Below, piece by piece: positions 6,456 to 23,926 of a DNA stretch of 30,720 bases. Position numbers and translations under genes: made by a program. Source of the DNA: a virus; IMG/VR virus record IMGVR_UViG_3300034407_003762, positions 1 to 30,720 of that record. One strand, 5' to 3'. The notes beneath the pieces are model-generated. The model did no database searches. It was not told where the DNA came from and saw nothing but the letters and a program-made list of their open reading frames with translations. Numbering within the stretch: the first letter of the stretch is position 1; each line of letters opens with the position of its first letter.

Positions 6456-6824
6456 CTTAAATAGCTTATCATAGATACTGCCTTCGTATTTTCCATATGG
6501 GTCAAACACTCTACCACTCTTGTCAATTGAGCCTTTAAATTTTCCATATTTATCATAATACTTTCCACTTTTCTCAAGTGTTCCATAATATTTTCCATAT
6601 TGATCATATACTCTTCGCTTTGGTTTCTCAGGCAAATTATTAATAAATTTAATACATTGACTCTCTACTTGAAAGCTATCAGATACAACATTGTATAACG
6701 ATATATCTTTATCCAACAACATACACGTTTGGTCTTGCCCTAAAAAATGATAAATCTCATAATAACGAGGTTCTTCATCTAATGGCGATATCGCAAAAAA
6801 TAATATGAGTATATATTCTATCAT
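6453..6824 (-). CDS. Exported protein with tandem YG-type repeats
   Basis: This 123-residue protein has a short hydrophobic N-terminus (MIEYILILFFAIS), suggesting export. After a Cys-containing middle, residues about 72-120 hold four imperfect repeats of 'YDxYGKxxGxxxKSG': DQYGKYYGTLEKSG, DKYGKFKGSIDKSG, DPYGKYEGSIYDK and their linkers. Such YD.(Y/N)G..G repeats form beta-hairpin arrays; they recall MORN-like and '4-fold beta flower' repeats. Tyr and Gly dominate, and the repeats are basic. Function is unknown; a surface or envelope target is an inference. It overlaps the dioxygenase gene by 4 nt. Confidence 0.6.
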   Translation of the reverse strand: MIEYILILFFAISPLDEEPRYYEIYHFLGQDQTCMLLDKDISLYNVVSDSFQVESQCIKFINNLPEKPKRRVYDQYGKYYGTLEKSGKYYDKYGKFKGSIDKSGRVFDPYGKYEGSIYDKLFK

Positions 6825-7435
6825 CTAAATGGTGCTCCACTTATCCAAGCAACTAATGCCCATCTTTCTCCCTTTGTAATTGGCATCACTCTATGAGAAA
6901 GAAAAGATGGAAATGCAAGACTTTGACCAATAGGCATTTTATGTTCAAAAAGTTTATTTGAGAAAAAAGCAATATTACCACCCTCATATTCATCATTGAG
7001 AGCAATAGATAAAGATATTTTTCTTGTTGATGTTTCTTCTTCTCCTAAATCTGTGTGCCAATCATAACCAACAGATGGTGCATTATATCTTAATAGTTGT
7101 GGTCTTTCTAACAATCCTACTACATCATAATCTAAATATTCAAGAGCAGTATAAATTGAATTGATAATAATTTCATCTATCCACATTGCTGATTCATCTA
7201 TCACCCAAACATCAACATCTCTTTTTTTATCTAACACAAATTTTTTGTCTTTTTGAATTCTGCCTTTTACTTTTTGATGTATTTCTTTTTTATGTTCTAA
7301 AATAATTCTTTGACAAGTTGCTTTTGACAATTCACCACACCTTACAACTCCGTGCGAGTTTTTGTTTTGTTTAGGATTAATTGCAAGTGCCATTTTATCT
7401 GAATCCCATAAGGTATCTAAATTCGCTCTGTGCAT
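6821..7435 (-). CDS. 2-oxoglutarate/Fe(II)-dependent dioxygenase, PKHD hydroxylase type
   Basis: From ATG 7435 this is 204 residues. The family hydroxylates substrates using 2-oxoglutarate, O2 and Fe(II). The double-stranded beta-helix motifs are visible. DWHTDLG supplies H127 and D129, SHRVMP supplies H181, and TKGERWALVAW supplies the 2-oxoglutarate-binding Arg (R191). It resembles phage/bacterial PKHD (PiuC/YbiX-like) enzymes. In phages these may act on protein or modified bases; substrate unknown here. An in-frame TTG lies 6 nt upstream. No strong ribosome binding site is seen, so MALAINP downstream is an alternative start. Confidence 0.85.
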   Translation of the reverse strand: MHRANLDTLWDSDKMALAINPKQNKNSHGVVRCGELSKATCQRIILEHKKEIHQKVKGRIQKDKKFVLDKKRDVDVWVIDESAMWIDEIIINSIYTALEYLDYDVVGLLERPQLLRYNAPSVGYDWHTDLGEEETSTRKISLSIALNDEYEGGNIAFFSNKLFEHKMPIGQSLAFPSFLSHRVMPITKGERWALVAWISGAPFR

Positions 7436-7574
7436 ATTCAAAATCTTGTATAATTGCTATTAATAAAAAGATAGCACAGAAATATAGTATTAAAAATACA
7501 TCTAAAAATATAAATGCTTTTAGAATAATTTTACTCCATTTTTTTATTTGGCTTTTCTTTGTACTTTGGTACAT
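7395..7574 (-). CDS. Possible small membrane protein in overlap
   Basis: This frame gives 59 residues from ATG 7574. It has a basic N-terminus, one long hydrophobic stretch (AFIFLDVFLILYFCAIFLLIAII) and a short tail. It overlaps the preceding exported protein and the dioxygenase start. GGA six nt upstream is a weak ribosome binding site. An intriguing GGAGTAAAA, like the leader of neighbouring genes, sits at the end of the upstream gene, but only ATT codons follow it. The hydrophobic segment supports reality, but AT-rich DNA makes such segments by chance. Confidence 0.35.
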   Translation of the reverse strand: MYQSTKKSQIKKWSKIILKAFIFLDVFLILYFCAIFLLIAIIQDFEYAQSEFRYLMGFR

Positions 7575-7767
7575 CTTCATTCCAATAATGTTTTGATGAC
7601 ATACATAAATATCCTGCATAAATGTCATCATTAATTTTATTTTTTTTTAACCAAGTATTGACAATGTTATTTGCATAGGCACATCCAGGCAATCTTCCAA
7701 TATGATACTGTGTATGAGTATGATCTTCGTTTAACAGAAAGATAACTAAGAAAAATGCTTTCATCAT
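7531..7767 (-). CDS. Small exported protein of unknown function
   Basis: This 78-residue protein (MMKAFFLVIFLLNED...) has a short signal-like N-terminus, then His-rich and Trp/Tyr-containing sequence with two Cys (GCAYAN, GYLCMSS), and a basic tail. ATG 7767 overlaps the stop of the preceding gene (ATGA), with AGGA about 9 nt upstream. That beats an ATG three codons earlier, which is too close to the AGGA. Two Cys suggest a periplasmic disulfide. No family recognised. Confidence 0.5.
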   Translation of the reverse strand: MMKAFFLVIFLLNEDHTHTQYHIGRLPGCAYANNIVNTWLKKNKINDDIYAGYLCMSSKHYWNEDVPKYKEKPNKKME

Positions 7768-7985
7768 TTTTTGCATTCCTGCTTGAATAGAATATATTTA
7801 TTGCCCTTTGGGTCAGTAAGTTCAAAGAATCGCTCTCCATCCTGCTCTATTGTCTTTCCAACGTACTTAAATTCACAATGAGTATTCTCTCTTTCTGCTT
7901 TTTCCTTTGCAAAGAAATAATCATCATTAAAAAATTTAATTACATTCCAAGTTGCTGAAATGCTTGTTATTAATTCTACTATCAT
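7764..7985 (-). CDS. Small protein of unknown function
   Basis: This 73-residue protein starts MIVELITSISATWNVIKFF, then turns charged with EFKYVGKTIEQDGERFFELTDPKGNKYILFK, which looks like a beta-sheet of three or more strands. Start and stop overlap both neighbours by 4 nt (ATGA), so it belongs to the translationally coupled leftward operon. No family recognised. Confidence 0.55.
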   Translation of the reverse strand: MIVELITSISATWNVIKFFNDDYFFAKEKAERENTHCEFKYVGKTIEQDGERFFELTDPKGNKYILFKQECKK

Positions 7986-8209
7986 ATCTCTTCCATATCT
8001 AAATTATTTTTGACTAGATTACACAATAAAGCGAGATGTTTGGGAAGAGGTTTATTTTTTTTTTCAAAATGACAAATGTATGATCTACTTGTAAATCCTA
8101 AAAAATTTGCCATTGCTTGTTGGCTTTTTCCCATTCTTTTTCGCAAAAGTAATAAATCGTTAGAATTAAATCTATAAAAATCTTCTGTTATTGTTTTAAT
8201 ATGTTTCAT
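7982..8209 (-). CDS. XRE/Cro-type helix-turn-helix regulator
   Basis: From ATG 8209 this is 75 residues; AGGA seven nt upstream supports this start, and a GTG one codon earlier is in frame. Residues about 17-65 read LLLLRKRMGKSQQAMANFLG...SYICHFEKKNKPLPKHLALLC, a standard lambda-repressor-like HTH with recognition helix around FTSRSYICHFE. It probably binds operators in this phage's own early promoters. It sits inside an operon of small proteins, not at the divergent control region, where a second, unrelated-looking Cro-like gene lies. Confidence 0.75.
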   Translation of the reverse strand: MKHIKTITEDFYRFNSNDLLLLRKRMGKSQQAMANFLGFTSRSYICHFEKKNKPLPKHLALLCNLVKNNLDMEEI

Positions 8210-8942: not shown

Positions 8943-9377
8943 TTATTTTAAACACCAATTTTCATATTCGCTAAGCAATCTGTTCCAAGCTACTCTATTT
9001 TCTGTATCGTGAAATTCAGTACGAGATTTAATTCCTAATATTGCTCTTAGACCATTAGCAATTGAATCAGAACTGAATGGGTTAACTTCTTTGATTCCTT
9101 TTTGTTCTTTTAAAAACATTCCAAACTTTTCTTCTTTACACAAAATTCCAGCAGTTTGAATTGCTCTTAAAGCTTCATCATTTTTTTCTATAACCTCATC
9201 ATTTAAACGAGCAACTGCAACCCATTTATCCATATTAGGTGTAGGCATACCAAACATTGTTACAAATTCTTCTGCTTGTTCTAATGGAATCTCTACAATG
9301 ATCTGTGCAATGTTTCTTGTTTTAACAATTTTAAAATCTGAATATGTGCCTTTTGTTATTCTATTTGTTTCTTTCAT
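8943..9377 (-). CDS. Conserved phage protein of unknown function near recombination genes
   Basis: From ATG 9377 this is 144 residues; ATG overlaps the methyltransferase stop (ATGA), with AGGA close upstream. The pattern is EIPLEQAEEFVTMFGMP.P, VAVARLN, IQTAGILCKEEKFGMFL, LGIKSRTEFHDTENRVAWNRL. It recalls a family of proteins from alphaproteobacterial phages that I know by its 'AGILC...F..FL' and 'SR.E.D......W..L...Y..W' parts. No function is established to my knowledge. It is the last gene of the leftward recombination/replication operon. Confidence 0.6.
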   Translation of the reverse strand: MKETNRITKGTYSDFKIVKTRNIAQIIVEIPLEQAEEFVTMFGMPTPNMDKWVAVARLNDEVIEKNDEALRAIQTAGILCKEEKFGMFLKEQKGIKEVNPFSSDSIANGLRAILGIKSRTEFHDTENRVAWNRLLSEYENWCLK

Positions 9378-10000
9378 AATGTCCTCGCATATTTTAAACA
9401 TTTATCTAATCTCTTTTGATTTATCTCATTACCAAAAAATGCCATATCATATTTTACTGCCATTTTTAATGTTAGACCAAACCCACAACAAGGGTCAAGA
9501 ACTATATCTTTTTTTGGACATTGAGCAAAAATATTCTCTGTTGCAAGTTTACCAATGGTATTATCAATTTTTGTACTATCAAATAAAAAGTCATTTTTAC
9601 AAGAAAAGTATGTAATGTTTTGGGCATAGATTTTATTATTGTTACGATAGTAAGGATAAAATATTTGTCGTAGTTTAAAGTTTGTATTCATCTCTATAAA
9701 TAATTTTAAATCATTCGTAAATTTTGTTCCCATTTCTAAAATCACAAGAGAATCTTCATTAGAGTAATTGTTTATAATTTTACAGAATGATTCTAAAAAA
9801 AACTCCCAACTTACTTCTTCTTTTGGCAAATTATTCATTTTTGAATTTAGGGTGTTAAACATTTTTAAAGCACCACTTCCCCAAGGAGGGTCACAATAAA
9901 GTATATCAAATTTTTTATTTTCCATTAACTTATCAATTGCTCCTTTTGTAATGTCACCATTGAAAAAAGAGTGTTTGTTAATCTTTAGTATTTGCTTCAT
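9374..10000 (-). CDS. DNA methyltransferase (N6-adenine or N4-cytosine type, permuted)
   Basis: This 208-residue protein transfers a methyl group from SAM to an amino group of a base. The catalytic motif FDILYCDPPWGSG (DPPW at 37-40) comes first. The SAM-binding motif LDPCCGFG lies near residue 168, followed by FFGNEINQKRL. This is a permuted catalytic-before-SAM order, compatible with the beta class, in a minimal enzyme without a long target-recognition domain. A ribosome binding site (AAGGAG, 8 nt) supports the start. No restriction partner is seen, so it is probably an orphan phage methylase used for protection or regulation. Target sequence unknown. Confidence 0.85.
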   Translation of the reverse strand: MKQILKINKHSFFNGDITKGAIDKLMENKKFDILYCDPPWGSGALKMFNTLNSKMNNLPKEEVSWEFFLESFCKIINNYSNEDSLVILEMGTKFTNDLKLFIEMNTNFKLRQIFYPYYRNNNKIYAQNITYFSCKNDFLFDSTKIDNTIGKLATENIFAQCPKKDIVLDPCCGFGLTLKMAVKYDMAFFGNEINQKRLDKCLKYARTL

Positions 10001-15672: not shown

Positions 15673-15909
15673 CTACCAATTTTTTCTGTTTTTTTTCTTT
15701 AATTGAATTGCATTGCCTAAAATCATCATATCAGCAAGTATTGATGCTTTGGCATTGACAATAGAATTATTGTATAAAGCACTCTCTTCATTTACTAAAA
15801 GACAATCACCATTAGGCAATTCCAAAAGTTCAACAAGACCACCAACAAATTTTTGTGCTTCTTCAAGACTTGGTTCTGATTTATGAACGTAAAATTTAGG
15901 ATATAGCAT
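15673..15909 (-). CDS. DUF3846-like protein
   Basis: This 78-residue protein carries AQKFVGGLVELLELPNGDCLLVNEES, then NNSIVNAKASILADMMILGNAIQL. The order 'VGG.iE...l.nG..l.vNEE......N..A.......i.GnAv.l' is that of DUF3846 proteins from phages and plasmids, with no known role. It converges with the structural gene with no gap, and no clear terminator stem is visible between them, only U-rich runs. No strong ribosome binding site is seen; it overlaps its upstream neighbour by 14 nt. Confidence 0.65.
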   Translation of the reverse strand: MLYPKFYVHKSEPSLEEAQKFVGGLVELLELPNGDCLLVNEESALYNNSIVNAKASILADMMILGNAIQLKKKNRKNW

Positions 15910-16375
15910 TTTGATACCATTGAGGTGTTTCTAGTTTCCATTTAGCAAATCTTGATTTGTCTTTTATATAAAATTCTCTGTATGCATCAACATAGAAAGG
16001 TTTTTTATATTGATCAGGCATACATTGAGGTGGGTTTTGCCAAATAACAGAAGGAAAGTTTTGAGGTAGTTCTTTAAGAACATAAATCATTTCTTCAGCT
16101 TTATGTATTTTATTATATCTTCTTCTGTATTCATTTAAACATTCTGTCCATAAATCAAACAGATAAGCATAATGTCGCCAACATTTCCTCACCCATTTTG
16201 TAGAAGGATGATTTATAAATGCTGATTTGTAGAGAAGAGGATGTTTGTTATCATCAAGAACTCTATGAGTTGTAGAAAGCATTTGTCCATATTCTAAAAT
16301 CATTTTGACAATATGTTTATCACAATGCATTCTTCCTGCTTTAAAAGGGCAGATATCTAAAAAGAATATATTCAT
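15896..16375 (-). CDS. Conserved phage protein (MHCDKH family), possible pyrimidine-dimer glycosylase relative
   Basis: This 159-residue protein contains FFLDICPFKAGRMHCDKHIVKMILE followed by MLSTTHRVLDD, NHPSTKWVRKCWRHYAYLFDLW, and PPQCMPDQYK..... AYREFYI..KSRFAKWK. I know this pattern from cyanophage and other phage proteins; some are related by profile to Pyr_excise pyrimidine-dimer DNA glycosylases, though that link is weak and from memory. Conserved His/Cys/Trp residues suggest an enzyme. A DNA-repair role would suit a sunlit-water phage, which is inference. Confidence 0.6.
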   Translation of the reverse strand: MNIFFLDICPFKAGRMHCDKHIVKMILEYGQMLSTTHRVLDDNKHPLLYKSAFINHPSTKWVRKCWRHYAYLFDLWTECLNEYRRRYNKIHKAEEMIYVLKELPQNFPSVIWQNPPQCMPDQYKKPFYVDAYREFYIKDKSRFAKWKLETPQWYQNAIS

Positions 16376-16625: not shown

Positions 16626-17246
16626 ATGTCTTTTATTGCCATAGCGAATTGCATCACAGTACAAAATATAAAACCGACTTCTAAACTTGTTTTAATTGTT
16701 CTTGCTAATTATGCTGATGAAAAATTTGAAACGTATCCTAGCAAAAGGCATTTGGCAAAAATATGCAATTGTGATGAAAGAACTATTTTAAGATCATTGC
16801 AAGAATTAGAAGATAAAAAAATTATACGAAAAAAAGAAAGATTTGATGATGGTAGACAAACTTCTAATCTTTATACTATTCTTGTAAAAAATGCAAATTT
16901 GTCACCCTCCCCCCCTACAAATATGTCACCCCATAATACTATCAATAATATACATATAGTGAAGTTGTCAAAAAAGGCTAATGGAAGAATAGAATATCCT
17001 GATGAATTTGAAGAGTTTTGGAAGTTGTATCCATCATCAGAACATAAAACAAAAAAAGACAAAACATTTGCAATGTGGAAAAAAATAGAAGATAAAAAAC
17101 AACTTTTAATATGTCTTAAAAATTACTCTTTAAAAAAACAAGGAAAATTTATTCACAATCCTTATAATTGGTTTGTTGACAAAATTTACGAAAAGTATAA
17201 AAATATAGAAATAAAAAAAGAAAGTAAAAATTCACTCGCAGGATAA
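16626..17246 (+). CDS. Replication initiator with winged helix (phage O-protein-like)
   Basis: From ATG 16626 this is 206 residues; GTG 16611 in frame overlaps the -10. The N-terminal domain (SKLVLIVLANYADEKFETYPSKRHLAKICNCDERTILRSLQELEDKKIIRKKERF) is a winged HTH (HTH_36 type). A linker rich in Pro, Ser and Asn comes next, then a C-terminal domain (FEEFWKLYPSSEHKTKKDKTFAMWKKI...FIHNPYNWFV) common to phage replication proteins. It likely binds the origin and loads the helicase encoded next. The ATG of the primase-helicase overlaps its stop (TAATG). Confidence 0.8.
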   Translation: MSFIAIANCITVQNIKPTSKLVLIVLANYADEKFETYPSKRHLAKICNCDERTILRSLQELEDKKIIRKKERFDDGRQTSNLYTILVKNANLSPSPPTNMSPHNTINNIHIVKLSKKANGRIEYPDEFEEFWKLYPSSEHKTKKDKTFAMWKKIEDKKQLLICLKNYSLKKQGKFIHNPYNWFVDKIYEKYKNIEIKKESKNSLAG

Positions 17247-18964
17247 TGAGAATTTTAAACGAAATAGGAATTACTTTAAATAATTATTCAATAGGCAATC
17301 ACAAAACATTTTGCCCAAAATGCAAACATACTAGAAAATCACAAAATAGATTTGATACACCACTTTCTGTAACGATTGATTCAGAAAAAGTTTTATATAA
17401 ATGTCATAACTGTGATTATCAAGGTATAGTATCAGAAAAAACAAATTATAAAGTTATGCCTAAAATAAAAAAAGAAACAACATCAAAACTTTTTGATTGG
17501 TTTAATAAAAGAGGTATTTCTCAAAAAACAGTTGAAGATTTAGGTATCTATGAAAGTAATGGGTCAATATGTTTTCCATATATACAAGATAATCAAACTG
17601 TAAATGTAAAATATAGAACTTATGATAAACGATTCAAACAACAGCCAAATGCACAACGAACTCTTTACAATATTGATAATGTAAAAAAATATTGGGAAAG
17701 AACAGGAAAAAAGAATTTAATAATTTGTGAAGGAGAAATGGATGTAATTGCATTCTATGAAGCAGGAGTAATAAATGCAGTTACATTACCTGATGGTGCA
17801 CCTAAAGAAGCCAAGTTTGATTTAAAAGATTTACGATTTCAAGCATTAAAAAATTGTAAGTGGTTAAATGATGTTGATAAAGTTTATATCGCAACAGATC
17901 AAGATGATGCAGGAAAAGCTTTGCATTTAGAGTTAGTGCATAGATTTGGTAAAGATAGATGTTTGCAAGTAAAATTTCCTAATCAAGCTGGTGACGTTGC
18001 TACAAAAGATGCAAATGAATGTCTACTTCATCTTGGCAGAAATACTCTTATTGATTCACTAAAACAAGCTACACCTTACCCTATACAAGGCATATATACT
18101 GTTAGAAATTACAAGAAAGAAATTTATGACATATATGAAGGCAACATACAAAAACCTCTCTCCACAGGCTTTAAAATCCTTGATACTATTTACAAAATTC
18201 AACCAGCAACATTTCACGTTGTAACTGGTGTTCCTAATCACGGAAAATCAAATTTCATTGATCAAATTGCAGTTAATCTTTTTAGAAACGAAAATTGGAA
18301 GTTTTGTATATTTTCTCCTGAACATTCAACACCACAACACATAAGAAGAATTGTAGAAAAGATTGTAAAAAAACCTTTTGATGATGGATATTATGAAAGA
18401 ATGTCAAAAGATGAATTGACTAGAGGAATGAAAATTTTAAATGAGAACTTCTATTTTATTGAAAATAAGGATAATATACCATCAATAGATTGGATTCTAT
18501 CAAAAGCAAAACAGAGTGTTTTGAAATTTGGGATTAAAGGTATTATTATTGATCCATACAATGAAATTAATTCAACAAGAGAAGGGAATAAAAGAGAAGA
18601 TGAACATATACGAGATGTTATTAGCAAGTGTAAAAGGTTTTGTAGAACACACGAAATCACTATGTGGATGGTTGCACACCCAAATAAATTGCCTCGCAAG
18701 GAAGATGGGAGTATCGCAGTTCCAACTATGTATGATGTTAGTGGTTCTGCTCATTGGAATAATATGGCTGATGTAGGGCTTGTTGTCCACAGAAACTTTG
18801 ACACACAAAAAACAAGAGTAATTACAAGAAAGATAAGAGAGCAAGGTCTATATGGAAATATAGGCGAATGTTTCTTTGAATACGATCTGAAACAAAGAGT
18901 TTACAAAGAAGTAATAAAAGAATCTAAAACTCAGGAAACAAGACAATATTGGTACAATGATTAA
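17246..18964 (+). CDS. Bifunctional DNA primase-helicase (T7 gp4 / Twinkle type)
   Basis: This 572-residue protein lays primers and unwinds the fork. A zinc ribbon is formed by C23-P-K-C26 and C53-H-N-C56. The Toprim core has CEGEMDVIAFYEAG (about 161-174) and ATDQDDAGK (216-224). The RecA/DnaB-like helicase has Walker A GVPNHGKSN (328-336), Walker B-like GIIIDPYNE and an Arg/Asn-rich sensor region (VSGSAHWNNMADVGLVV). All three modules look intact. It follows the initiator directly; its stop overlaps the glycosyltransferase-like start by 8 nt, so the modification-like genes are coupled to replication. Confidence 0.93.
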   Translation: MRILNEIGITLNNYSIGNHKTFCPKCKHTRKSQNRFDTPLSVTIDSEKVLYKCHNCDYQGIVSEKTNYKVMPKIKKETTSKLFDWFNKRGISQKTVEDLGIYESNGSICFPYIQDNQTVNVKYRTYDKRFKQQPNAQRTLYNIDNVKKYWERTGKKNLIICEGEMDVIAFYEAGVINAVTLPDGAPKEAKFDLKDLRFQALKNCKWLNDVDKVYIATDQDDAGKALHLELVHRFGKDRCLQVKFPNQAGDVATKDANECLLHLGRNTLIDSLKQATPYPIQGIYTVRNYKKEIYDIYEGNIQKPLSTGFKILDTIYKIQPATFHVVTGVPNHGKSNFIDQIAVNLFRNENWKFCIFSPEHSTPQHIRRIVEKIVKKPFDDGYYERMSKDELTRGMKILNENFYFIENKDNIPSIDWILSKAKQSVLKFGIKGIIIDPYNEINSTREGNKREDEHIRDVISKCKRFCRTHEITMWMVAHPNKLPRKEDGSIAVPTMYDVSGSAHWNNMADVGLVVHRNFDTQKTRVITRKIREQGLYGNIGECFFEYDLKQRVYKEVIKESKTQETRQYWYND

Positions 18965-19664
18965 GATTTGTATAGCGATTATGCATTGCCCATATTATGC
19001 AGAAAGACAGTTAATTGTAAAAAAAATGATTAATCAAATTGGTTATTCAAATATTCTAAACAACCTTGAAGATTTTGCAGTAATTGAAGATTGGAAAAAA
19101 AAAGGTGTATGGAACACTTCAAAAAGATGTTGGGAATTTTGTTTATCTTCTAAAGCCACACATTTTCTTGTACTTCAAGATGATCTTGATTTATGTAAAG
19201 ATTTCTATAAAACACTTTTAAATTGTATACAAACATTTCCAAATAGAATGATGTCTTTGTATGCAAACAGAAAAATATGTGAAGAAGCAAAATCAAAAGA
19301 TATAAGATGGATTCAAATAAATGATGGAACTTGGGGTCAAGCCATTCTATTTCCAAAAGAATTATTTATAAAATTTTTTGAATGGCAAACAAAACATTTG
19401 GATTCTGAATGGTTTCAAGATGATATGAGATATAGTTTGTTTTGTTATAAAACAAAAAATTATCCATTGTGTCCAATGCCATCTTTAGTAGAACACTCTT
19501 TACCAAGCAATTCATCCATTGGAAATAATAATAAAAAAAGAATAGCAAGATGGTTTGAGCGAGAAAAATCATATTTGGATTACGATTGGTCAAACAAATC
19601 AATGTTATTTAGCAATTCAATAAGTTTCTTTAACAATGAATGGAAAAAATATTATTATGAATAA
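18957..19664 (+). CDS. Glycosyltransferase-like protein (GT-A type)
   Basis: This 235-residue protein contains ATHFLVLQDDLDLCKDF (Asp-rich DxD-like centre at 75-78), the metal/nucleotide-sugar site of GT-A enzymes. NDGTWGQAILFPKELFIKFFEW follows, then the late acidic HLDSEWFQDDMRYSLF and LVEHSLPSNSSIGN, an order typical of small sugar transferases. Phage enzymes of this sort may glycosylate modified DNA bases or surface polymers. Location between primase-helicase and IbrA/ParB-like genes favours nucleic acid as substrate; that is inference. Confidence 0.6.
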   Translation: MIKICIAIMHCPYYAERQLIVKKMINQIGYSNILNNLEDFAVIEDWKKKGVWNTSKRCWEFCLSSKATHFLVLQDDLDLCKDFYKTLLNCIQTFPNRMMSLYANRKICEEAKSKDIRWIQINDGTWGQAILFPKELFIKFFEWQTKHLDSEWFQDDMRYSLFCYKTKNYPLCPMPSLVEHSLPSNSSIGNNNKKRIARWFEREKSYLDYDWSNKSMLFSNSISFFNNEWKKYYYE

Positions 19665-20259
19665 TCAATACCATACTGCACTTAATTCAAAAAAAAGTGT
19701 AAGTCAAACAATTGAAGGCACAGAAAAATTTGAAACAAAAATTTGTTCAGCATTTAGATATGATTTTATTCCTGAACAATCATTACCAAAAGAATATGAT
19801 GAATGTGATTTTCTTTATGTAGAAGTTCCTTATCCACAAGGAATAAAAATTTTTGATGAGAGAGCCAATATAAAGAAAACAAGAACTGTTGATGAATTTG
19901 CTTTAGCTTTAACAAAAATTATTGAAAATGCAAAAAAACCCATTGGTATTGTTACATCAAAAATATTACATAAAAAATTACCGCCACCTGATGATTTCTA
20001 TGACATAAAGATTCACATTGGTAAAGTAACATTTGCTATACATAATTTAGATATTTCATATAAATTTAAAACATCAACAGATTTAATGAATTACGTTGCC
20101 AACAATTACGAATGTTTAGGTGACTTTTGTTGTGGTTATGGCTACCCTCTTCTTGAATATTTGAAATTTGGAGGAAAGAAAATAATAGCAAGTGATTACA
20201 ACAGCCAATGCATAACAATTCTAAAAAAAAAAATAGAAGATTATGAAAAAAACCTCTAA
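19657..20259 (+). CDS. Methyltransferase-like protein with degenerate catalytic motif
   Basis: From ATG 19657 this is 200 residues; ATG 19636 gives 207. The order mirrors the 9374 methylase. CDFLYVEVPYPQG stands where DPPW/DPPY is expected. LGDFCCGYGYPLLEYLKFGGKKIIASDYN is a SAM-binding motif very like LDPCCGFG. The catalytic Asp-Pro-Pro-Tyr has become Glu-Val-Pro-Tyr, so classic amino-methylation is doubtful. It could bind a nucleotide or base for a different chemistry, or be a partner subunit. It overlaps GT-like and IbrA-like genes on both sides. Confidence 0.5.
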   Translation: MNNQYHTALNSKKSVSQTIEGTEKFETKICSAFRYDFIPEQSLPKEYDECDFLYVEVPYPQGIKIFDERANIKKTRTVDEFALALTKIIENAKKPIGIVTSKILHKKLPPPDDFYDIKIHIGKVTFAIHNLDISYKFKTSTDLMNYVANNYECLGDFCCGYGYPLLEYLKFGGKKIIASDYNSQCITILKKKIEDYEKNL

Positions 20260-21388
20260 ATCAACCTTTATGAAAATTTATCAAGACATCAATGTTTTTG
20301 ATAAAGCCTTAGAAAGAATTAATTGGTTGTTTGATGAATTTGATACAGTTGCCACAAATATTTCAGGAGGAAAAGATTCAACAGTTGTTCTTGAGCTTTT
20401 GATAAAAGTAGCAAGAGAACGAAATCGTTTGCCGGTAAAAGTTTTATTTTTAGATCAAGAAGCTGAGTGGCAAGGAACAATAGATCAGGTAAAATATTCA
20501 ATGGAGAGAAAAGAAGTAGAGCCATATTGGTTTCAAATACCTTTCGTCATTCAGAATGGTACATCAACAATTGATTGGTGGTTAGAATGTTGGGATAAAG
20601 AAAAAAAAGATTTATGGGTACATCCTTATCAAGAAATATCATACAAAGAAAACATATATGGCACAGATAGATTTTATGAAATAATGGATGCAATCTATGA
20701 AAAAGAATGGGGAGGAAAAATAGCAATCCTTGGAGGTGTAAGAACTCAGGAATCTGCGGTTCGTAAAATTGCTGTTTGTGCAGATGCAACTTATAAAGGT
20801 GAAACTTGGGGAGCAGTAAGAAACAAAAAAAAAGAAATATATTCTTTTTATCCAATATACGATTGGACTTTTCAAGATATATGGAAGTCAATACACGACA
20901 ATGGTTGGAAATATAATTCCGTCTATGATGCACAATATAGATATGGTGTTCCTTTTAATAATATGAGAGTTTCAAATCTTACACACGAAACAGCAATTAG
21001 AAATATTTTTTATTGTCAAGAAATTGAACCAAAAACCTACGAAAGATTGACACAAAGAATTGGAGGTATTGATATGGCTTCTAAATTTCAAGAAGATTTC
21101 TTTGTTTATGAACTACCATATATGTTTAAAGATTGGAAAGAATACAGAGATCATCTTTTAGAAAAAATTATTACCAATAAATATAAGCCATATTTTGAAA
21201 AAATGTTTGCAGATAATGAAAGATTATATAAAGAGGTATTTAAAATATATCCAAATGAAGAGCAAAACTGTACAAAAGCAGAAGTAAAAGCTATATTATC
21301 AAATGATTGGGAAGGAACAAAAATAGGAAATTATAGAAAATCACCAACAATAACTAGATATAGAAGGCAAATAGAACTACAAAAATGA
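20243..21388 (+). CDS. IbrA-like protein, PAPS-reductase/ATP-pyrophosphatase family (DUF3440)
   Basis: This 381-residue protein has the PP-loop SGGKDST (41-47) and an HUP-type fold. KVLFLDQEAEWQGTIDQVKYSM, the WWLECWD...DLWVHPY stretch and GVRTQESAVRKIAV follow. This order is that of IbrA/DUF3440 proteins, relatives of PAPS reductase and of DndC. They activate a substrate by adenylation. IbrA is known as a co-regulator with IbrB in some bacteria; biochemistry is unsettled. The next gene is an IbrB-like protein, with a 4-nt ATGA overlap, so the pair is intact. Confidence 0.82.
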   Translation: MKKTSKSTFMKIYQDINVFDKALERINWLFDEFDTVATNISGGKDSTVVLELLIKVARERNRLPVKVLFLDQEAEWQGTIDQVKYSMERKEVEPYWFQIPFVIQNGTSTIDWWLECWDKEKKDLWVHPYQEISYKENIYGTDRFYEIMDAIYEKEWGGKIAILGGVRTQESAVRKIAVCADATYKGETWGAVRNKKKEIYSFYPIYDWTFQDIWKSIHDNGWKYNSVYDAQYRYGVPFNNMRVSNLTHETAIRNIFYCQEIEPKTYERLTQRIGGIDMASKFQEDFFVYELPYMFKDWKEYRDHLLEKIITNKYKPYFEKMFADNERLYKEVFKIYPNEEQNCTKAEVKAILSNDWEGTKIGNYRKSPTITRYRRQIELQK

Positions 21389-21948
21389 TTACACAACATC
21401 CAATTCATAATGTCCAATGGGTTCACATTGATCAAGTAAAAGCAAATAATTACAACCCAAACTCTGTGGCAAAAAATGAAATGAATCTTTTATACACATC
21501 AATTAAACAAGATGGTTATACACAACCAGTTGTGACATTTTATGATTCTAAATTAGAAAAATATATAATTGTTGATGGTTTTCACAGATACTCCATAATG
21601 AAAATGTATAAAGATATTTACGAAACCACAGATGGCAAACTTCCCATAGTAGTGATAAAAAAAGATATATCAGAAAGAATGGCATCTACAATTCGCCATA
21701 ACAGAGCAAGAGGAAAACATAGTATTGATGGTATGTCCAATATCGTATTCAATATGCTTGATAAGGGAATAGATGATAAAACAATTTGTCAAAACTTAGG
21801 ATTAGAACCTGAAGAATTAATAAGATTGAAACATATAACTGGTTTTAGTAAATTATTTAAAGATACAAAATATTCAAAAGCTTGGGAAACAAGAAGGCAA
21901 TTAGAACTACGGAGAGAATATGAAAATAGAGAAGATAAATCTAAGTGA
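21385..21948 (+). CDS. IbrB-like ParB-domain protein
   Basis: This 187-residue protein has an N-terminal ParB/Srx fold: VHIDQVKANNYNPNSV, SIKQDGYTQPVVTF, VDGFHRYSIM (GFHR at 65-68). The next part, RHNRARGKHSIDGMSNIVFNMLDKG with LGLEPEELIRLKHITG, is the IbrB-specific region with an HTH. Its C-terminus (SKAWETRRQLELRREYENRE) is a charged helix. It pairs with the IbrA-like protein immediately upstream, and its 3' end overlaps the next ParB-like gene by 29 nt. Confidence 0.8.
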   Translation: MITQHPIHNVQWVHIDQVKANNYNPNSVAKNEMNLLYTSIKQDGYTQPVVTFYDSKLEKYIIVDGFHRYSIMKMYKDIYETTDGKLPIVVIKKDISERMASTIRHNRARGKHSIDGMSNIVFNMLDKGIDDKTICQNLGLEPEELIRLKHITGFSKLFKDTKYSKAWETRRQLELRREYENREDKSK

Positions 21949-22489
21949 CATAAAACCATATTGGCGAAACCCAAGAAAAAATGCAGAAGCAGTTGAAGCC
22001 ATAAAAAATAGTATACAAAGATATGGATATAATTCTCCAATACTAATTGACAAAGATAATGTTATCATTGCAGGACATACACGTTTTCTTGCACTCAGAG
22101 ATATGGAAAAAAAAGAGGTAGAGGTTATTCGTTTAGATTTAGATGAAGAAAAAGCAAAAGAATTTAGAATAGTAGATAATAAATCAAATGAATTATCGCT
22201 ATGGGATAATGAAAAATTAATGCAAGAATTGAGAGAAATATCTGACATTGATGAAATGAAACAATATTTTCCAAACGAAGATTTGATAAATTTGATTGCA
22301 GATAATATGAATTATGAGCCAATACAATATTCAGAAGATTCATTTAATAATTCCTTTTCTAACCAACAAGAAAATTTTGAAAACAATGAGGACACACTTC
22401 ATAAAGTTATGTGTCCACATTGCCTGAAGGAGCATTATATCAATAGGAGCGAATTATTGAATTTTGCATCCGACACTAGAGAAGAGTAA
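21920..22489 (+). CDS. ParB-like nuclease-domain protein with C-terminal Cys motif
   Basis: This 189-residue protein contains INLSDIKPYWRNPRKNAEAVEAIKNSIQRYGYNSPILID and IIAGHTRFLAL (GHTR at 52-55), the ParB/sulfiredoxin nucleotide-binding core. Then follow ALRDMEKKEVEVIRLDLDEEKAKEFRIVDNK and a C-terminal tail with MCPHCLKEHY (165-173), a half zinc ribbon. This second, more classical ParB domain sits directly after IbrB. Such phage ParB proteins may be CTP/ATP-dependent or DNA-binding. The last 14 nt overlap the convergent GGCT gene. Confidence 0.75.
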   Translation: MKIEKINLSDIKPYWRNPRKNAEAVEAIKNSIQRYGYNSPILIDKDNVIIAGHTRFLALRDMEKKEVEVIRLDLDEEKAKEFRIVDNKSNELSLWDNEKLMQELREISDIDEMKQYFPNEDLINLIADNMNYEPIQYSEDSFNNSFSNQQENFENNEDTLHKVMCPHCLKEHYINRSELLNFASDTREE

Positions 22490-22895
22490 AATCCGATTCT
22501 TTATACGATCTTTCTTTAGCTTCAAATAAATATTTTTTCTCCAAAGAAAAATCATCGTATCCCTCTTCAATACAGTTAAAGTAATGTTTACTTGGGGGAG
22601 CAACTCTGTTTGTATTCATTACATACGTCATTGCCAACTCACCATTTAATTTGAAAAATATTTTAGAATACAAATTAGGATAACCTTCATAAACATCCAA
22701 AGATTTTTCACAATCCTTTGTAATATCCCAAACACCCATAGGACATTTGAATCCTTCAATTTGTTCCACATCAGCCACACCTCTGAACACCAACCTAAAA
22801 TTAGGTATTAATATTTTTCCCAAAGGTTTTGCTTGAGGACAACGTAGTTTCATTTGTTCCAAATTTAAGTTACTTCCATAAGATAAATATTTCAT
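22476..22895 (-). CDS. Gamma-glutamylcyclotransferase-like (GGCT/AIG2 fold)
   Basis: This 139-residue protein has the YLSYGSNLN motif (YGSN at 6-9) and LDVYEGYPNLY, with catalytic Glu near residue 70; both are diagnostic of the GGCT fold. The family cleaves gamma-glutamyl amides with cyclisation. It follows the amidoligase gene with a shared base (start at 22895 where that gene stops), so the two are translationally coupled. It probably trims or reverses the amide made by the amidoligase. The substrate is unknown. Its 3' end overlaps the ParB gene. Confidence 0.85.
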   Translation of the reverse strand: MKYLSYGSNLNLEQMKLRCPQAKPLGKILIPNFRLVFRGVADVEQIEGFKCPMGVWDITKDCEKSLDVYEGYPNLYSKIFFKLNGELAMTYVMNTNRVAPPSKHYFNCIEEGYDDFSLEKKYLFEAKERSYKESDFTLL

Positions 22896-23926
22896 TATGC
22901 TATCCTTTCATTTAATAAATCACTTCTACCCAAAAAGTAGTATTCCAATTTGTCGCAAACACCAGCGAACAAACTATCAGTTTCAAAGTCAACATCTTTC
23001 ATTGAAGAAACAAACTGATGTAACTTGTCATCATCTAACTTTCTACTGCTTCCAATATACATTGCACATACTTCATCATAAGAAAGAAAACGTGTATGAG
23101 GAGTCATTGTACCAACATTGCCATCTCTTGAAGTTCTGATTGCAGTAAACTTAAAACCAAAACCTCTTTTTTGTGTCATCTCAATGTTGAAATGAGCCAT
23201 AGCACCTTTCAAAACACCAAAAGCTTTTTTCTTTAATTCTCTATCCACATCTCTGTCAGATACAAAAGTTCTATCCATTGAAGTGCCACTCTTCTTTTTG
23301 TCAGACTCTGCAACAAAATCCATTAGAAATAAAATCCAATTTTTAATTTTGAAAGCACTCAATGTACCACTATGGTGTCTAAATTCAATTGTATTGATTC
23401 TTGAATAACCTCTCATACTTGTAGTATTTACTTTGCTTTCTCTTCTTGTAGCATAACCAACTGATTCAGTAATATCAAAACCAACAACTGAACGACAGTA
23501 ATTATTGTTATTATCTCTTCTGCTAGAAGGCATAAAAGCATCAATCTGTTTTTCAAATTTTGCATATCTTTTCAAAATTGATCTTACAGTATCTTCTTCC
23601 ATATTCTCCCAAGAGATATGAACGTGTAAACCACATCTTCTATCAACAGAACCATTTGCAAGTTTTACTGCATTTACAACTGAATCAATTTCAGAAATTC
23701 TGTCAACTGTAAGAATAGGCGAAACTAACTCACCACCTCTCATTGATCTACCTCTGCCTGATGCAACCGTAGAATCATAAGTGATCTTCCAATTATCAAA
23801 GTTAGTAGAAGAATGATATCCCTCAATAGTTGAAGTAATACCAGCTTCTCTTAATTTTTTTTGAACACTACTTGCTGTTGCATTTCTGTATTCAATCTCT
23901 AATCCAAATTTAATAGTATCTTTCAT
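22895..23926 (-). CDS. Putative amidoligase (COOH-NH2 ligase, glutamine-synthetase-like fold)
   Basis: This is a 343-residue protein. IKFGLEIEYR (about 6-14) gives the first metal-binding Glu, and MRGGELVSPIL (62-72) gives the second. CGLHVHIS (98-105) and NTIEFRHHSGTL (178-189) complete the amidoligase_2 signature. The family joins a carboxylate to an amine using ATP. Predicted phage members occur with GGCT-fold partners, as here, and are thought to modify peptides or small metabolites. Start is set by AAGGAGCGATAATG; a TTGACA-17-TAATAT promoter lies upstream. Target could be a protein, cell-wall peptide or modified base. Confidence 0.85.
   Translation of the reverse strand: MKDTIKFGLEIEYRNATASSVQKKLREAGITSTIEGYHSSTNFDNWKITYDSTVASGRGRSMRGGELVSPILTVDRISEIDSVVNAVKLANGSVDRRCGLHVHISWENMEEDTVRSILKRYAKFEKQIDAFMPSSRRDNNNNYCRSVVGFDITESVGYATRRESKVNTTSMRGYSRINTIEFRHHSGTLSAFKIKNWILFLMDFVAESDKKKSGTSMDRTFVSDRDVDRELKKKAFGVLKGAMAHFNIEMTQKRGFGFKFTAIRTSRDGNVGTMTPHTRFLSYDEVCAMYIGSSRKLDDDKLHQFVSSMKDVDFETDSLFAGVCDKLEYYFLGRSDLLNERIA

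Follow-up and report, generated by a model that had tools for sequence, protein, structure and literature searches.

A recurrent IbrA/IbrB gene cassette of viral contigs with an exchangeable module, and its possible role in DNA hypermodification

Introduction

Five overlapping genes, referred to here as the IbrA/IbrB cassette, lie directly after the primase-helicase gene in the DNA of an uncultured virus (IMG/VR record IMGVR_UViG_3300034407_003762, positions 1 to 30,720). The record is linear and 30,720 bases long; the window denotes this whole stretch, in which terminase and portal genes are found downstream of the cassette. The gene set goes beyond chance, as dozens of further viral contigs carry it too. 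The cassette is real and modular, and apparently undescribed; a literature search, which extended neither to bioRxiv nor to most subscription journals, retrieved no description of it. An original prediction, made from the letters of the window alone, regarded the five genes as one coupled block and suggested DNA hypermodification. In the computational analysis reported here, this interpretation is partly supported.

Gene organization of the cassette

The cassette genes and the preceding replication gene are as follows, with the part of the cassette (core or module) to which each is assigned below.

17246-18964, plus strand: primase-helicase (Toprim and DnaB-like); DnaB_C 3.8e-15 and Toprim_4 1.1e-11 (Pfam), phrog_239 1.5e-84
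18957-19664, plus strand: GT, putative GT-A-like glycosyltransferase, module; 235 residues; phrog_854 "glucosyltransferase" 3.5e-10
19636-20259, plus strand: MT, permuted DNA-methyltransferase-like protein (predicted), slot gene, module; 207 residues; weak Methyltransf_25 match, 0.017
20243-21388, plus strand: IbrA, PP-loop ATP-pyrophosphatase of the PAPS-reductase/CysD superfamily (PAPS, 3'-phosphoadenosine 5'-phosphosulfate), core; 381 residues; phrog_2302 3.3e-75
21385-21948, plus strand: IbrB, ParB/sulfiredoxin-fold partner of IbrA, core; 187 residues; phrog_2159 2.9e-76, ParB_N 4e-6
21920-22489, plus strand: ParB2, second ParB-domain protein, core; 189 residues; phrog_620 4.2e-47

The overlapping arrangement after the primase-helicase, as originally predicted, is confirmed by the open reading frames, which span 18957-22489 with successive overlaps of 29, 17, 4 and 29 nt, and the 3' end of the primase-helicase gene overlaps the start of GT by 8 nt. 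Since relatives of MT align only from about residue 10 of the window protein, its true start is likely the ATG at 19657.

Co-occurrence of the cassette genes

IbrA, used as the starting query, identified 42 viral loci. Profiles of MT, of GT and of OX, a different gene that holds the position of MT in other cassettes, were each run as an independent query against the viral contigs, and IbrA was scored within 4 kb. IbrA was present in this range in 13 of the 14 loci found with the MT profile, the sole remaining locus being on a contig that ends 52 nt past MT, and in all loci found with the OX profile (58/58). Among the best 80 of 111 GT relatives, 75 have IbrA within 4 kb, two more have IbrB only, and three have neither; when distinct GT proteins in this best-80 set are counted, the figure is 62 of 65. 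Two of the three GT loci with neither gene (L131 and L189) are cut contigs. The third, L183, is a real exception and the one clear case of its kind: its GT relative is flanked by 5 kb in each direction, and no IbrA, IbrB or slot enzyme (the slot being the position directly before IbrA) is present. Some loci overlap on one contig and locus counts are not independent, hence distinct-protein counts are given where possible. Joint travel of the genes in homologous loci was one of the points on which the original prediction had staked itself, and here the genes do travel together.

Composition was compared in two sets of loci. A distinct-cassette set was reduced from 115 to 79 loci by dropping those with an IbrA below 300 residues or a flank below 2.5 kb on either side; IbrB is present in all 79 of these distinct IbrA loci, ParB2 in 69, GT in 63, and a small PH(E/Q)Y-motif protein (PHEY) in 54. 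The second set, an IbrA-only sample not enriched by other queries, went from 42 to 21 loci once those with an identical or short IbrA or with short flanks had been removed, and it contains IbrB in 21, ParB2 in 21, a slot enzyme in 19 and GT in 14.

Single-sequence searches returned no relatives of MT or GT in the viral contigs and none of MT in phages. The relatives of both surfaced only through IbrA loci and then through profiles, so that absence in a single-sequence search is misleading. In a collection of 84,980 genome assemblies, the MT profile found no relative, and only two OX relatives were found, both in cassettes with GT, IbrA and IbrB. Queries with OX, an MT relative and GNAT matched nothing among cultured phages.

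Slot enzymes and exchange of the module

The slot holds proteins of several unrelated classes, namely the MT family, OX, GNAT acyltransferases and others. OX has a double-stranded beta-helix with an HxD...H triad, in a model with a predicted local distance difference test score (pLDDT) of 96, and its best PDB matches are the Fe(II)/2-oxoglutarate (2OG) oxygenase AspH, followed by cupins. In a few loci, the slot is held by true DPPW N6_N4_Mtase relatives or by class I S-adenosylmethionine (SAM) methyltransferases. Of the 79 cassettes, 38 contain OX, 12 GNAT and 9 MT, never two of these together, and DPPW proteins stand alongside GNAT in three and alongside OX in one. The OX/MT/GNAT label changes at least 18 times on a tree of 100 IbrA proteins, which was built by a quick method with long branches flagged, loci with less than 1.8 kb upstream omitted and DPPW-labelled MT-like proteins scored as MT.

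The exchange is seen in related pairs of loci. Between L063 (slot MT) and L075 (slot OX), DNA identity is 92.6% over a 5.0-kb stretch that ends with ParB2 and 95.0% from the start of IbrA onward, and the block between these two points gives no alignment. At the protein level, the two loci share 97% identity in ParB2, 99% in IbrA and 98% in IbrB, against 41% in PHEY and 22% in GT. A second exchange pair, L014 (GNAT) and L021 (MT), has 98% identity in both IbrA and IbrB and 21% in GT; a third and more diverged pair, L071 (OX) and L186 (GNAT), has 94% in IbrA, 91% in IbrB and 46% in GT. GT and the slot enzyme are thus replaced as a unit and the core is kept. ParB2-IbrA-IbrB is the constant part, and GT with the gene before IbrA is the exchangeable module. 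The genes do travel together as in the coupled block originally seen; that they do not form a fixed five-gene pathway had not been anticipated.

Some cassettes carry further tailoring genes, including NAD epimerase, cytidylyltransferase-like, TylF/Methyltransf_24 and SAM decarboxylase genes. In L034, an S-adenosylmethionine decarboxylase (6990-7385, Pfam 4.8e-12) lies directly before a DPPW methyltransferase and IbrA, which suggests decarboxylated SAM as donor, i.e., aminopropylation. The cassette of L035 also includes a radical SAM protein (7119-8009) that weakly matches spore-photoproduct lyase and has a homologue in L036. The PHEY protein (W...PH(E/Q)Y; e.g., L002 6575-6889 and L035 4380-4721) resembles the N-terminal part of the SAM methyltransferases of L013 and L020; it has no Pfam match and is not present in the window.

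MT and GT, the module proteins of the window

The original prediction gave the second gene a SAM-fold product whose catalytic motif is altered, a description with which both the structural model and the family alignment agree. MT has no confident sequence match. In its AlphaFold2 model, which is of low confidence (pLDDT 58), the motif IV strand comes first and the motif I strand later, and Foldseek ranked M1.HpyAVI best (5hfj, 3.6e-4), followed by MboIIA, M.BceJIV and a rotifer N4C enzyme. As far as a model of this confidence indicates, MT has the permuted fold order of N6-adenine/N4-cytosine (N6A/N4C) DNA methyltransferases, and it shares with the beta-class enzymes M1.HpyAVI, MboIIA and M.BceJIV both this predicted order and the GxG of motif I, which is kept as CGYG. 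Motif IV of beta-class N6A/N4C methyltransferases is (D/N/S)PP(Y/F/W). MT departs from this canonical form, with VEVPY in the window and EPPF, EPPY, EPPW, EVPW or EPAW in relatives. Its first position is Glu in 15/15 distinct family members, in place of Asp, Asn or Ser, which makes the substitution a family trait and not the decay of one copy. Canonical relatives have Asp (DPPW or DPPC) at motif IV, as in L010, L034, L020 and a DPPW N6_N4_Mtase relative elsewhere in the window (9374-10000, minus strand). Unlike the beta-class enzymes, the 207-residue MT also has no recognisable target-recognition domain. It is probable that MT either attaches a group other than plain methyl at N6 or N4 or targets a different base.

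The phrog_854 match of GT covers residues 34-194, and A2, D76, P95, H180, S186 and R195 are invariant in 17/17 aligned family members, whose genes hold the same cassette position in other loci. GT has no Pfam match, and its profile gave no significant glycosyltransferase match in the PDB. A scan for PF01755 (GT25 family) in two genomes found no match, with the controls equally silent.

The IbrA-IbrB-ParB2 core

IbrA had been described as a PP-loop PAPS-reductase relative linked to DndC of DNA phosphorothioation. The first part stands, as IbrA matches phrog_2302 (residues 10-376), PAPS_reduct (2.7e-15) and DUF3440 (1.7e-5), and contains SGGKDS in the window; the link to DndC is weak (TIGR03183 4.1e-6; PADLOC DndC 7.7e-9). 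In an alignment of 99 distinct IbrA proteins, from which one very divergent row was omitted, each position of SGGKDS is kept in 95 to 99 proteins, and DxE, GxRxxE...R and DWxxxD are nearly invariant. No cysteine is conserved in this alignment, the best column reaching 69/99 and the next 39/99 and 36/99. By comparison, DndC possesses three cysteines for a 4Fe-4S centre plus a cysteine dyad, as described in the accessible part of PMC10853773. Sulfur chemistry was set aside as the leading idea for IbrA because no cysteine is conserved. In a profile search of the PDB, sulfate adenylyltransferase CysD (2.7e-10) and FAD synthase (1.3e-8) scored better than PAPS reductases (7e-4), and this order, together with the absence of a conserved cysteine, makes adenylylation likelier than sulfur transfer as the predicted activity of IbrA.

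IbrB and a second ParB-domain protein had likewise been named, and both assignments agree with the family matches (phrog_2159 and phrog_620, respectively), that of IbrB being accompanied by proximity to IbrA in 79/79 distinct cassettes. ParB2 also matches the DNA methyltransferase family phrog_498 (profile positions 33-182, 1.7e-35) and PADLOC MTase_II (9.1e-21), and on these profile matches it is assigned to the N-terminal ParB domains of phage DNA methyltransferases. A 2025 survey of ParB domains reports NTP binding (nucleoside triphosphates) and fusions to phage DNA methyltransferases, and the term IbrB is absent from its accessible text (PMC12704722).

Comparison with known systems

The same two adjacent families are found in known IbrA/IbrB pairs, such as E. 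coli ibrAB, ybdN-ybdM and phage pairs of a PAPS reductase and a ParB protein; here, GT, a slot enzyme and ParB2 accompany the pair. The ybdN-ybdM genes of the E. coli chromosome are IbrAB homologues according to the available portion of PMC9068703, and the Flavobacterium phages FCL-2 and 6H carry IbrA/IbrB, which are discussed only as possible virulence factors in the text accessible from PMC4541368. The CmoA-CmoX-CmoY carboxymethylcytosine system, as far as it is described in the available part of PMC12783734, resembles the cassette in having an altered DNA-methyltransferase relative, a second enzyme acting on the handle, and frequent ParB-domain neighbours. It differs in that CmoX is a C5-methyltransferase with SPPC, whereas MT here is N6A/N4C-like, has Glu in motif IV, and is accompanied by IbrAB and GT. 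With Dnd (DndB/DndC), the cassette shares a PP-loop enzyme and a ParB-fold protein in one cluster; unlike Dnd, it has an IbrA without conserved cysteines, no DndD, DndE or DndA was recognised in the cassettes, and its chemistry modules are foreign to Dnd.

One end of the record of the cultured Microbacterium phage Hendrix has genes for a GT-family protein (gp154), an annotated glucosyltransferase (155), a methyltransferase (156), GNAT (157) and IbrA (158), and the other end has three ParB genes and the terminase gene. A homologous helicase-like gene of about 400 residues lies near IbrAB in L045, L049, L050 and L051, in Flavobacterium, Lactobacillus and Fusobacterium phages, and no GT relative was found near IbrA in these four loci.

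Neighbouring genes in the window

Right after the cassette, on the opposite strand (22476-23926, minus), lie a GGCT-like gene (139 residues) and an Amidoligase_2 gene (343 residues). Of 51 distinct cassettes whose flanks reach at least 3.5 kb, 11 have both genes no more than 5 kb from IbrA, and the Amidoligase_2 enzyme might attach an amino acid to a handle. Away from the cassette, the window contains a 2OG-FeII_Oxy_3 oxygenase gene (6821-7441, minus; Pfam 1.1e-12, phrog_61) and a pyrimidine-dimer DNA glycosylase-like gene (15896-16375, minus; Pfam Pyr_excise 4.5e-5).

A DNA-hypermodification cassette as the favoured explanation

We favour the explanation, at a probability of roughly 0.65, that these genes form a phage DNA-hypermodification cassette, in which a constant ParB-IbrA-IbrB core serves an exchangeable chemistry module. 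The core would recruit the enzymes to phage DNA after its replication and activate the target, with IbrA spending ATP to adenylylate its substrate and IbrB and ParB2 acting as NTP-binding, DNA-associated partners. The module, made up of GT, a single slot enzyme encoded immediately ahead of IbrA and, in most relatives though not in the window, PHEY, would supply the chemistry: the slot enzyme may install a group or handle on the base, and GT may decorate this handle, joined in some relatives by sugar-nucleotide or methyl-tailoring enzymes. A module swap would change the decoration and leave the core in place, so that the phage may escape modification-specific restriction. DNA is favoured as the target because relatives of DNA methyltransferases are found among the slot enzymes and because the ParB domain of ParB2 is of the methyltransferase-associated kind. 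The slot enzymes are, moreover, modification-type enzymes of unrelated folds (permuted DNA-methyltransferase, DPPW N6_N4_Mtase, GNAT and 2OG-oxygenase-like), and this repertoire of alternative partners fits the hypermodification originally suggested. No thymidylate-synthase homologue was found in 5/5 larger cassette-bearing records, which are possibly fragments; this argues mildly against precursor-level base replacement and for modification after replication.

Several observations weigh against this explanation. Sampling was enriched by the queries, and GT is present in just 14/21 loci of the IbrA-only sample. No fusion proteins joining cassette parts were found, the confidence of the MT model is low, and the name of GT is weakly supported, coming from one PHROG name and conserved acidic residues. 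Mycobacterium phage Athena carries ParB, IbrA and IbrB only, Arthrobacter phage Laroye and phage 055SW001 have IbrAB plus a different methyltransferase, and a helicase-like gene precedes IbrB-IbrA in Flavobacterium phages FCV-1 and 23T. As IbrAB occurs without GT or a slot enzyme in cultured phages and in E. coli, the core has a role independent of the module. Furthermore, GNATs, 2OG oxygenases, PP-loop enzymes and glycosyltransferases also act on RNA, proteins and metabolites, and the literature searched names no cassette phage with modified DNA.

A bolder form of the favoured explanation, which we put forward tentatively and would not wager on, is that ParB2-IbrA-IbrB is a general plug-in platform. 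IbrA would adenylylate either a DNA position or a small acceptor that is brought to the DNA, and unrelated enzymes would complete different hypermodified bases: a Glu-motif methyltransferase relative, a 2OG oxygenase, GNAT or, in one virus, a methyltransferase relative beside a SAM decarboxylase. Exchange of a single GT-slot block, with the flanks kept constant, would switch the DNA chemotype.

Alternative explanations

An RNA target is the main rival to a DNA target, and an unlikely one. The cassette would then modify RNA, e.g., transfer RNA (tRNA), against host anticodon nucleases, with IbrA performing a TilS-like adenylylation and the slot enzyme and GT finishing the modification. PP-loop, GNAT, 2OG oxygenase, methyltransferase and glycosyltransferase enzymes all have counterparts in tRNA modification, and an RNA target is compatible with the primase-helicase neighbour; it is disfavoured by the true DPPW N6_N4_Mtase relatives in the slot, by the predicted structural match of the window MT to DNA methyltransferases and by the match of ParB2 to the ParB domain of such enzymes. 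It is quite unlikely that glycosylation or acylation by the module is directed at a protein or the host surface, as in serotype-converting prophages, with exchange providing receptor or virion diversity. Swappable glycosyltransferase and acyltransferase modules are typical of seroconversion, and seroconverting prophages employ glycosyltransferases and acetyltransferases (accessible part of PMC12373910). However, no transmembrane-like stretch was found in the GT, MT, OX or IbrA families, no flippase or lipid-linked sugar gene was recognised among the accessory clusters listed, and in the window the cassette and the primase-helicase gene overlap translationally.

That IbrAB are transcriptional co-activators of prophage genes and the remaining genes unrelated morons, we regard as very unlikely. 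IbrAB were named for activating the prophage eib genes of E. coli ECOR-9, as the title of Sandt 2002 states (cited in the available text of PMC10434257), but the near-complete retention of SGGKDS in IbrA speaks against a purely transcriptional role, and MT, OX and GT almost never occur without IbrA. A phosphorothioation-like system, in which a DndC-like IbrA inserts sulfur into the DNA backbone, is highly improbable: the distant similarity to DndC is offset by the lack of any IbrA cysteine column above 69/99, where DndC needs its cluster cysteines and dyad, and no DndD, DndE or desulfurase was recognised among the accessory clusters listed.

Implications

IbrA and IbrB homologues, whose biochemistry is not established, occur in E. 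coli and in phages infecting many different hosts, and they now emerge as the constant core of a cassette whose chemistry module is naturally exchanged. If the hypermodification explanation is true, the cassettes would produce a new class of modified DNA bases, and IbrA would be a DNA-directed adenylylating enzyme. The exchange of modules would also give phages a mechanism to switch the decoration of their DNA and so to evade modification-dependent restriction. As the cultured Microbacterium phage Hendrix has a version of the cassette, these predictions are practically testable.

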